Shown here piece by piece: positions 8,578-12,341 of a stretch of DNA of 64,000 nucleotides. The stretch comes from Blattabacterium sp. (Mastotermes darwiniensis) str. MADAR (GTDB taxonomy: Bacteria > Bacteroidota > Bacteroidia > Flavobacteriales > Blattabacteriaceae), in assembly GCF_000233435.1 (NCBI RefSeq), contig NC_016146.1, positions 387,001-451,000 on the forward strand, in the 5' to 3' direction. Below the pieces are notes generated by a model that saw only the letters and a list, made by a program, of their open reading frames with translations, had not been told where the DNA came from and made no database searches. The position numbers and the translations under genes were made by a program. How positions within the stretch are numbered: the stretch's first letter is position 1; every line of letters begins with the position of its first letter.

Positions 8578-9561
8578 TTAAATCGATTGAATAAAATTCA
8601 ACAATTTATTCTTTAATAAGGAAAGACCTTCCTTTGTAAAAGAAGATATAAAAATAATGTCTATTTCTAATTTTAGAAAAATATTTTTGATTTTTATTTT
8701 AATTCTATCATCAATTAAATCTGATTTAGAAATAACCAATAAACGTTTTTTATTTAATAATTTTTTATTAAATTTTTTCAATTCATTCAATAAAATGAAA
8801 TATTCTTTTTTCTTATTTCTTGTTTTTGAAGAAATTAAAAATAATAGAACGGAATTACGTTCTATATGTCTTAGGAAATAATGTCCTAACCCTTTTCCTT
8901 TTGAAGCATTTTCTATAATTCCAGGTAAATCAGCCATTAAAAAAGATTTATAATTCATTGAAACAATTCCTAAATTTGGTCTTTTAGTAGTAAAAGAAAA
9001 ATTTCCTATTTTTGGTCTCGCTTTTGTCATTTTAGAAAGTAAAGTTGATTTTCCTGAATTTGGAAATCCAATTAAACCAACATCGGCCAAAATTTTTAAT
9101 TCTAAAAAGATCCAATTTCCTGTAGTTTTTATACCAGGTTGGGCATAATAAGGAGATTGTGATTTAGAACTTTTAAAAAAAACATTCCCTTTTCCCCCTT
9201 TTCCTCCTTTGAATAAAACCTCTTCTTGATTATCTTTAGTAATTTCTACTATAATAGTTTTATTAATATCTCTAACTATAGTTCCTACAGGAACTTCTAT
9301 AAATAAATTTTTTCCATTTGATCCTGTTATATTATTTCCTTTTCCTGGAGATCCAGATTTTGCTATCCAACGTTTTTTATATCTTAAATGAATATATGTA
9401 TGAAGATTAGAATTCCCTCGTAGAATAATATCTCCTCCTTTTCCACCTGATCCTCCATCAGGCCCCCTTTTTTTTTTATCTCTATGGAAATGAATACATC
9501 CCATTCCTCCATTTCCACTTTTACAATAGATTTTGATAAAATCTATAAAGTTATCTTTCAT
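8578..9561 (-). CDS. obgE: Obg-family GTPase (ribosome assembly)
   Basis: Ribosome-associated GTPase needed for large-subunit maturation. The ATG at 9559-9561 begins MKDNFIDFIKIYCKSGNGG, the usual N-terminus; a TTG six codons upstream is less likely. It has 327 residues: a Gly-rich Obg fold (about 1-156, with repeats such as GGSGGKGGDI), then the G domain with G1 GFPNSGKST, G3 DLPGI and G4 SKSD. A long C-terminal extension is absent. It lies 14 bp after the adk stop, a common pairing in Flavobacteria. Confidence 0.96.
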   Translation of the reverse strand: MKDNFIDFIKIYCKSGNGGMGCIHFHRDKKKRGPDGGSGGKGGDIILRGNSNLHTYIHLRYKKRWIAKSGSPGKGNNITGSNGKNLFIEVPVGTIVRDINKTIIVEITKDNQEEVLFKGGKGGKGNVFFKSSKSQSPYYAQPGIKTTGNWIFLELKILADVGLIGFPNSGKSTLLSKMTKARPKIGNFSFTTKRPNLGIVSMNYKSFLMADLPGIIENASKGKGLGHYFLRHIERNSVLLFLISSKTRNKKKEYFILLNELKKFNKKLLNKKRLLVISKSDLIDDRIKIKIKNIFLKLEIDIIFISSFTKEGLSLLKNKLLNFIQSI

Positions 9562-9575
9562 AAGGAAATACTTTT

Positions 9576-10157
9576 TCAAAGTTTCATAATACTTTTCTCT
9601 ATAAGAAGGGAAATATTTTTTACAGAATAAGAAGCATTAAGTGTAATGATATTATTTTTCCATTTTTTTTCCTTCCAAATAAAAGCAGTTTCCTTATTGT
9701 ATTCTTCTATTCTTCTTTTAACCGTAATAATATTCGTATCATCATTACGATGACTAATCCTTCCTCTTTTCAGAAGTCTATTTATTAATAAGTCTTTTTG
9801 TATACAAAAAGAAAAAATTATGTTGATTTCTCCTAAAGAAAATTCTTGTAATATTTTTTCTAAAGAAAAAACTTGATTTTTTGTTCTTGGATAACCATCA
9901 TAAATAATTCCTTTGGATTGAATATACTTTTTCATTTCAAGATTCAACATATTTGTAGTGATCTTATCGGGAACTAATATTCCTTTATTGATATAATAAC
10001 TAGCAAATTGACCTAAACTTGTTTTATTTTTTATGTGATGTCTAAATATTCTTCCAGGAGATAAATGGATAAACCCAAATTTATTTTCTAATATTTTTGC
10101 TTGAGTTCCTTTTCCACATCCTGGTGGTCCAAATAATATAATGTGTATCATATTCAT
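9576..10157 (-). CDS. adk: Adenylate kinase
   Basis: Interconverts ATP, ADP and AMP. The 193-residue protein is the short-lid form typical of Bacteroidetes. The P-loop is GPPGCGKGTQ (near residues 10-19); the AMP-binding DGYPRT near 90 and the lid arginines in LLKRGRISHRNDD are present. ATG at 10157 or two codons later both fit. It is followed closely by obgE. Confidence 0.96.
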   Translation of the reverse strand: MNMIHIILFGPPGCGKGTQAKILENKFGFIHLSPGRIFRHHIKNKTSLGQFASYYINKGILVPDKITTNMLNLEMKKYIQSKGIIYDGYPRTKNQVFSLEKILQEFSLGEINIIFSFCIQKDLLINRLLKRGRISHRNDDTNIITVKRRIEEYNKETAFIWKEKKWKNNIITLNASYSVKNISLLIEKSIMKL

Positions 10158-10207: not shown

Positions 10208-11596
10208 CTATAGATGAATCGATTTTTCATAGGCATGAAAAATCGATTCTAAAATAGATTCACTCAATGAAGGATGGGGATGAATACATCCCATGATTTC
10301 ATAATTATTAGCTTCTAATTTTCTGGCAACTACAACTTCAGAAATGATTTCCGACACATTGTTCCCAATCATATGACAACCTAACCATTCATCATATTTA
10401 TCGTCAAAAATAACCTTAACAAATCCTTCTGTATTGTTATCACAAATAGATTTTCCAAGATTTCTAAAAGAAAATTTTCCTACTTTAATTTTATATCCTT
10501 TTTCTTTCGCTTGTTTTTCAGTATAGCCCACAGAGGAAATTTCTGGATAACAATAAATACATTTTGGAATATTATTATAATCTATTTTTTGAGGATTCAT
10601 CCCTTTAATATTTTCTACACATGAAATAGCTTCATTTGAAGCTACATGAGCAAAAGATGGTCCTTCTATAACATCTCCAATAGCATAATATCCATCTATA
10701 TTGGTTCTATACTTATCATCTACAATTATGAATCCTTTTTTGTTGGTATGAATACCAATTTCTTCCAATCCTATATCCCAAACATTTGGAATAGGAGTCC
10801 CAATAGTAGATAATGCTATATCCGCTTCTAAAGTAATGTTTTTTATAGGAGTCTGAATTTCAGCTAAAATACCTTTTTTAGAAGAATTTATTTCCTTTAT
10901 AAAAGATGAAGTGTAATTTTTTATTCCTATTTGATCAAAATAAATTTTTAATTGGTCGGAGATATCTTCATCTCCATTTGGAAGAAGTTTGGGAAATAAT
11001 TCTATAATAGTTACTTCAGTCCCCATAGAATGATAAAAATAAGAAAATTCCAATCCAATGGAATCTGAACCCATGACAATCATTTTTTTTGGTAATAGAG
11101 AAAGAGATATAGCTTCCTTATATCCTATAATTTTATCTTTTTGAAATTTTTCTTCTATTTTAGATCTTGATCCTGTAGCTATGATGATATGAGAAGCATA
11201 ACATTCTTCAATTTTTTTTTGATTTTTAAGTATTTCAATTTTTTTTCCATTTTTTAATTTTGCCTTTCCATGAATAACATGGATTCCATTCTTTTTCATT
11301 AAGAATGTTATTCTCTCTCTCATCTTATTCACTACATTTCTACTATTGGAAATAATTTTCCCAAAATCAATCTTTATTTGATTATGTATTCCGAATAAAT
11401 TTTCATTTTTTTTTATTATTTGCAAGGTTTTTGCGCTATTTAATAGAGTTTTTGTTGGTATATATCCCCAATTTAAACCAACTCCTCCCAAACATTCTTT
11501 TTCTACTATAGCTGTTTTCATTCCAAGCTGTGCCGATCGTATAGAAGCAACATAACCACCAGGTCCACTACCTAAAACAATAACATCAAAATACAT
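10208..11596 (-). CDS. lpd: Dihydrolipoamide dehydrogenase (E3) lacking its redox cysteines
   Basis: The family reoxidises dihydrolipoamide in the pyruvate and 2-oxoglutarate dehydrogenases and the glycine cleavage system. ATG at 11594-11596 gives 462 residues with FAD motif GSGPGG (9-14), AIGDV near 305 and the C-terminal HPHPSLSE carrying the His-Glu pair. The active-site disulfide is gone: where relatives have GGVCLNxGCIP, this protein reads GGVGLNWGYIP, so Cys to Gly at residue 40 (codon GGT) and Cys to Tyr at 45 (TAT). The NAD-binding GxGxxG is also altered, GSDSIG with Asp at 178. The frame is otherwise intact and full length. Fold and family are certain; normal E3 activity is not credible from this sequence. 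Confidence 0.92.
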   Translation of the reverse strand: MYFDVIVLGSGPGGYVASIRSAQLGMKTAIVEKECLGGVGLNWGYIPTKTLLNSAKTLQIIKKNENLFGIHNQIKIDFGKIISNSRNVVNKMRERITFLMKKNGIHVIHGKAKLKNGKKIEILKNQKKIEECYASHIIIATGSRSKIEEKFQKDKIIGYKEAISLSLLPKKMIVMGSDSIGLEFSYFYHSMGTEVTIIELFPKLLPNGDEDISDQLKIYFDQIGIKNYTSSFIKEINSSKKGILAEIQTPIKNITLEADIALSTIGTPIPNVWDIGLEEIGIHTNKKGFIIVDDKYRTNIDGYYAIGDVIEGPSFAHVASNEAISCVENIKGMNPQKIDYNNIPKCIYCYPEISSVGYTEKQAKEKGYKIKVGKFSFRNLGKSICDNNTEGFVKVIFDDKYDEWLGCHMIGNNVSEIISEVVVARKLEANNYEIMGCIHPHPSLSESILESIFHAYEKSIHL

Positions 11597-11675
11597 AACA
11601 ATATGATTTTTTATAAATTTACAGATTTTTATTCTCAAATTTTTCATAAATTTATTTTTTTATATTATTCAACGT

Positions 11676-12341
11676 ATGAAATTTTTTATAGATACAGCTA
11701 ACCTAGAAGAAATAAGAAAAGCTCAATTATTAGGTTTATTGGATGGAATAACAACTAACCCCTCTTTAATTTCAAAAGAAATTATTGATAAAAGTGATAT
11801 TTATAATCATTATACCTCCATTTGCAATCTTTTAAAAAGAGAAGAAGGAAATGTTAGCATAGAAGTAATAAGTACAAATTATACGGATATGATCCAAGAA
11901 GGAGAAAAACTTTCACTTTTACATCCAAAAATAGTGGTAAAAATACCGATAAGTAAAGACGGAATTAAAGCAATTAAATATTTATCTAATAAAAATATTA
12001 AAACTAATTGTACCTTAGTTTTTTCATTAGGACAGGCTCTTTTAGCAGCAAAAGTAGGATCTAATTATGTATCTCCATTTATAGGGAGATTGGACGATAT
12101 ATCATATAATGGATTGAGTTTAGTAAAAGAAATAAAAACCATTTATGAATATTACCATTTTAATACTAAAATTTTAGCAGCTTCAATACGAAATCCTTTT
12201 CACATTTTGGAATGTGCTAAAATAGGAATACATGCTGTAACTACTCCATTCAAAGTTATAGATACCCTTTTCTATCATCCATTAACAAAAATAGGATTGA
12301 AAAAATTCTTAAAGGATTACGATAATATTAATGAATCTTAA
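11676..12341 (+). CDS. tal: Transaldolase (short FSA/TalC-type)
   Basis: Transfers a dihydroxyacetone unit in the non-oxidative pentose phosphate pathway. At 221 residues it belongs to the short subfamily that includes fructose-6-phosphate aldolase. It starts MKFFIDTANLEEIRKA, contains GITTNPSLISKE, the Schiff-base lysine in VVKIPIS near residue 89, and TNCTLVFSLGQALLA followed by SPFIGRLDD. Aldolase versus transaldolase activity cannot be decided from sequence alone. The 3' end overlaps convergent rpoZ by 14 bp. Confidence 0.9.
   Translation: MKFFIDTANLEEIRKAQLLGLLDGITTNPSLISKEIIDKSDIYNHYTSICNLLKREEGNVSIEVISTNYTDMIQEGEKLSLLHPKIVVKIPISKDGIKAIKYLSNKNIKTNCTLVFSLGQALLAAKVGSNYVSPFIGRLDDISYNGLSLVKEIKTIYEYYHFNTKILAASIRNPFHILECAKIGIHAVTTPFKVIDTLFYHPLTKIGLKKFLKDYDNINES

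Follow-up and report, generated by a model that had tools for sequence, protein, structure and literature searches.

Across the genus Blattabacterium, catalytic residues of a second dihydrolipoyl dehydrogenase (E3), LpdB, have been lost in several genomes, yet purifying selection on the protein continues. We consider it rather probable that, on repeated occasions, a redundant E3 became a pseudoenzyme that still binds FAD and was retained for a structural role. The gene lies in the window, the whole stretch of 64,000 nucleotides analysed here, which covers positions 387001-451000 of the 587,248-bp chromosome of Blattabacterium sp. (Mastotermes darwiniensis) str. MADAR (the assembly has a second contig of 3,088 bp). 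The lpdB reading frame contains 479 amino acids counted from its first ATG and 462 from Met18 (position 11596), which is probably the start of LpdB, since it agrees with the start in the family; all residue numbers of LpdB are counted from Met18. The protein scored 492.4 bits against the TIGR01350 profile, above the curated cut-off of 408.8, and carried both Pfam domains, PF07992 and PF02852, the latter being the dimerisation domain. Its best sequence match among solved structures was 6uzi, a dihydrolipoyl dehydrogenase from Flavobacteriia, and an AlphaFold model built on a two-sequence alignment reached a mean pLDDT of 31, too low to be informative. The gene, its neighbours and the motif positions are listed in Table 1.

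Table 1. Location of lpdB, its neighbours and the motif residues of LpdB (positions are those of the window)
Feature	Position	Strand	Basis
lpdB, E3 paralogue lacking the redox disulfide	10208..11647	-	ORF, profile and Pfam
adk, next gene downstream of lpdB	9576..10157	-	ORF list, comparison with relatives
obgE, downstream of adk	8578..9579	-	ORF list, comparison with relatives
Transaldolase-like gene, divergent neighbour upstream of lpdB	11676..12341	+	Flank conserved in relatives
Codon 40, GGT (Gly), replaces first (interchange) Cys	11477..11479	-	
Codon 45, TAT (Tyr), replaces second (flavin-side) Cys	11462..11464	-	
Codon 178, GAT (Asp), replaces second Gly of NAD-domain GxGxxG	11063..11065	-	
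Active-site His441...Glu446 (HPxxxE), kept	10259..10276	-	
Asp308 of YAIGD (FAD contact), kept	10673..10675	-	

The active-site stretch of LpdB, GGVGLNWGYIPTK, lacked the CxxxxC redox-active disulfide, and we found the same two replacement codons at the same positions (Gly40 and Tyr45) as had been given in a preliminary description of this DNA. In addition to these two cysteine losses, which that description had listed, the NAD-binding GxGxxG motif was broken by a lesion at position 178 (G178D). Lys49, the FAD GxGxxG, YAIGD, His441 and Glu446 were all unchanged, in agreement with the earlier statement that the FAD motif and the C-terminal His-Glu pair are intact. Among 130 residues invariant across the 39 Cys-bearing LpdBs compared below, six were altered in this strain (C40G, C45Y, G178D, L315F, P376S and T430N), and three of the six (C40, C45 and G178) are catalytic or cofactor residues, with a hypergeometric P of about 0.0002-0.006 according to the number of sites deemed catalytic, these sites having been picked post hoc. 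Because the CxxxxC pair is missing, LpdB should be unable to carry out E3 chemistry, as had been proposed and as we accept from its sequence. It is expected to be without NAD+-dependent dihydrolipoamide oxidation and is predicted to fold and to bind FAD.

E3 chemistry itself does not appear to be lost from the genome, where only the second copy, LpdB, looks dead. The other Lpd, LpdA, is canonical and keeps both cysteines. It lies at chromosome positions 460564-461991, 9.6 kb beyond the end of the window, and has the active-site stretch GGTCLNVGCIPSK and intact NAD and His-Glu motifs, so the earlier suggestion that another E3 exists proved right. The genome also contained E1 and E2 of PDH, OGDH and BCKDH, together with GcvP, GcvH and LipA; in alignments inspected by eye, the lipoyl lysines of the three E2 proteins and GcvH were kept, as were the subunit-binding segments and catalytic motifs of the three E2s. 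Because LpdA is canonical and the lipoyl enzymes are present, E3 chemistry has both a supplier and customers. The alternative once offered, that lipoamide-dependent enzymes are being lost, found no support, and such a loss is ruled out as the cause of the change in LpdB, the lipoyl enzymes checked being present. E2, GcvH and LipA were likewise intact in the other disulfide-less genomes, G015 excepted; this 511-kb genome held only two E2 genes against three in the other 48, and the counterpart of the BCKDH E2 was missing. Separately, near residues 424-428 (window about 10313-10327), the C-terminal domain of LpdB carried ARKLE in place of the AMEF(R) of LpdA, and the basic form of this motif was common to the LpdBs of other Flavobacteriales. 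The position of the charge difference, presumably an E2-docking residue, is Lys in LpdB and Glu in LpdA; E2 docking may differ between the two types of E3.

We compared 49 Blattabacterium genomes, in which this strain is designated G000. LpdA was present and canonical in every one, with both cysteines kept, and LpdB was found in 47. The first Cys was gone in eight of these 47 LpdBs, replaced by Gly in G000, Tyr in G009, G010, G011 and G040, Ser in G015 and G023, and Phe in G030; the second was gone as well in three of the eight (G000, G030 and G040), and all 39 LpdBs with the first Cys kept both. The sister genomes G006 and G014 had deleted lpdB, which must therefore be dispensable in them, and retained the flanking genes, including adk and obgE. 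Both cysteines were present in each of the 16 outgroup copies examined within the order, one of which came from a member of the same family with a genome of 300 kb, and intact Blattabacterium LpdB was about 50-54% identical to copies from other Flavobacteriales. LpdB is the E3 type most closely shared by nearly all relatives in the order, and LpdA is the other type. In a FastTree phylogeny built from LpdA and ten neighbouring genes, G000 stood separate from the other losing genomes, and G039, with both cysteines, divided G009 and G030 from the clade of G015, G011, G023, G010 and G040, with support of 0.998-1.000 at the relevant nodes. Because the intact G039 sits between losing clades, the Cys was lost independently at least three times, provided that it was never regained. 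The ten genomes with a disulfide-less or deleted LpdB were among the eleven smallest (Mann-Whitney P 9e-7, shared ancestry ignored).

The residues around the two cofactors fared differently. The FAD GxGxxG, Glu32, the ATG motif and the glycine of YAIG were kept in 47 of 47 LpdBs, whereas the NAD GxGxxG was altered in seven of the eight disulfide-less LpdBs (G009 alone keeps it) versus none of the 39 Cys-bearing ones. Position 178 was D or N in five of the seven other disulfide-less LpdBs and never in the 39 with Cys. The catalytic His441 had become Tyr in four of the eight (G009, G010, G015 and G040), and the reading frames of the disulfide-less LpdBs were still open. An error in the assembly or base calls at codons 40 and 45 is extremely unlikely, because two separate substitutions would be needed there, with a third in the NAD motif, and because seven other assemblies show the same class of loss.

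To describe selection after the loss, we used an MG94-type branch codon model with 20 taxa, in which there was no among-site rate variation and synonymous change was near-saturated. Against a background omega of 0.124, LpdB had an omega of 0.129 on the G000 branch (omega = 1 rejected, 2dlnL 46), where the loss may be recent, of 0.169 at the G009 and G030 tips (2dlnL 131) and of 0.189 within the five-genome clade (2dlnL 354). On post-loss branches, LpdB was significantly relaxed, 1.5-fold, from 0.124 to 0.184 (2dlnL 17.7), and LpdA showed no relaxation on the same branches. The cleanest case is that of G010 and G040, which share the inherited loss of the first Cys, the NAD Gly, Pro and His, and whose tips are therefore wholly post-loss; there, LpdB omega was 0.197 (omega = 1 rejected, 2dlnL 88), and the same test put adk at 0.202 and a further neighbouring gene at 0.184.

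These values bear on whether LpdB is merely a redundant copy undergoing slow decay, with catalysis hit first, the frame next, and no function retained. Such decay would fit the concentration of damaged or deleted copies in the smallest genomes and the omega raised in LpdB only, and both the deletions in G006 and G014 and the 1.5-fold rise, accompanied by the loss of further catalytic residues, speak against retention of a pseudo-E3. However, omega on wholly post-loss branches was about 0.20, like that of neighbours such as adk, the FAD motifs were never struck, and free evolution along a branch of the length of G000 would collect about 19 stops (about 20 over such lengths), leaving slow decay a less likely account. 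Its best case is this strain taken alone, in which LpdB may have lost its disulfide only lately: for a loss within the last tenth of the branch, the absence of stops would have P = 0.034 and omega would be little informative. Open frames could also reflect the gene order lpdB-adk-obgE on one strand, with frame-breaking mutations selected against for the sake of the downstream genes, and G006 and G014 do keep adk and obgE though lpdB is missing. This polar constraint would account for open frames but not for low omega at missense sites, and we think it very improbable.

The preferred reading, a retained pseudo-E3, would run as follows. LpdA would supply E3 chemistry for PDH, OGDH, BCKDH and glycine cleavage, and catalysis by LpdB would be redundant beside it; in shrinking genomes, the LpdB disulfide, and usually the NAD site as well, would then have been lost at least three times, with the protein kept full-length, FAD-binding and under purifying selection. 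LpdB would form a flavin-stabilised dimer, either a homodimer or a heterodimer with LpdA, that is structural and holds or docks something without turnover of lipoamide or NADH. LpdB thus described probably has a non-enzymatic job; it would lack E3 and diaphorase activity, its role would be structural, and the pattern in relatives would also apply to this strain. The preliminary description had likewise envisaged a different role, and of its two examples, the structural one is the best remaining reading, given that purifying selection persists in relatives, and the NADH/FAD diaphorase is weakened by the broken NAD motif. More tentatively, and at somewhat less than even confidence, we propose that the E3 type shared with relatives was converted repeatedly and in parallel to a scaffold that binds FAD without redox activity, and that selection maintains this scaffold in genomes of 0.51-0.6 Mb.

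In E3 dimers, both subunits contribute residues to the active site. LpdB might accordingly pair with LpdA and lend its His441-Glu446 to the LpdA Cys site, its own Cys and NAD sites being unneeded, and LpdB of this genome does keep His441-Glu446 while having lost its own cysteines and NAD Gly. However, such lending cannot be the general reason for retention, because four disulfide-less LpdBs are without His441, and LpdA gave no sign of co-adaptation, because in G000 it was unchanged at all 153 conserved sites; we regard this catalytic heterodimer as unlikely. Still less likely is a flavin oxidoreductase that works without disulfide chemistry, passing electrons from NADH to quinone or oxygen in the manner of yeast Irc15p or M. 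tuberculosis LpdA. The FAD site of LpdB is intact, and Irc15p, without both cysteines, is still an NADH-reducible flavoprotein (PMC6296175), but the NAD GxGxxG is broken here by G178D and in six of the seven other disulfide-less LpdBs, which makes a simple NADH diaphorase improbable.

The biosynthesis of riboflavin was also variable in the genus. Lumazine synthase (ribH) was absent in ten of the 49 genomes, four with intact LpdB (G008, G033, G039 and G041), four with disulfide-less LpdB (G009, G015, G030 and G040), and G006 and G014, which suggests that riboflavin synthesis was lost on several occasions. In G006, 64 ORFs of this strain were without a match or weakly matched, among them genes of the riboflavin, folate and sulfate-assimilation pathways and serC-like ones (named by eye). 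A link between the loss of riboflavin genes and that of LpdB, as combined in G006, is ruled out, because ribH is absent both with intact and with disulfide-less LpdB. In this strain, ribD (G000, contig C1, 464712-465742, outside the window) was split into deaminase and reductase halves in two overlapping frames, the shift lying near an A-rich run of lysine codons; riboflavin synthesis may therefore rely on slippage here or be impaired.

A dead duplicate should be discarded from genomes this small, and LpdB instead keeps a full frame and a low omega. Its retention separates the E3 fold and FAD-dimer function from the chemistry, and offers natural mutants for other roles of E3; if true, the scaffold reading would show that lipoamide dehydrogenase has a function apart from catalysis, one able to outlast its chemistry. 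Caution is warranted with profile-based annotation, which labels the disulfide-less copies 'dihydrolipoyl dehydrogenase'. A literature search on Blattabacterium and lipoamide dehydrogenase, with the original Mastotermes symbiont genome paper outside its reach, returned no mention of the LpdB loss.

In pseudoenzymes generally (PMC5106787, PMC10211241), the fold is kept, catalysis is lost and the protein is conserved, and LpdB resembles this general picture in its predicted fold and its conserved sequence with catalytic residues gone. LpdB is of the same type as the Flavobacteriia dihydrolipoyl dehydrogenases, but the outgroup copies all have both cysteines. Among E3-fold flavoproteins, M. tuberculosis LpdA (Rv3303c) and the soluble transhydrogenase SthA lack at least one active-site Cys and the catalytic His (PMC6296175); they differ in keeping pyridine-nucleotide-dependent activities (quinone reductase and transhydrogenase, respectively), and LpdB scored over the Lpd cut-off and far under those curated for SthA and for quinone dehydrogenase. 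The nearest described analogue is yeast Irc15p, which is rapidly reduced by NADH and associated with microtubules (PMC6296175). Like LpdB, Irc15p is an Lpd paralogue beside a canonical Lpd (Lpd1p), has neither Cys, and keeps the His-Glu pair and an intact FAD motif. By contrast, the NAD glycine motif of LpdB is broken too, making it doubtful that its FAD is reducible by NADH, and LpdB is a bacterial protein in which the disulfide was lost several times independently within one genus.
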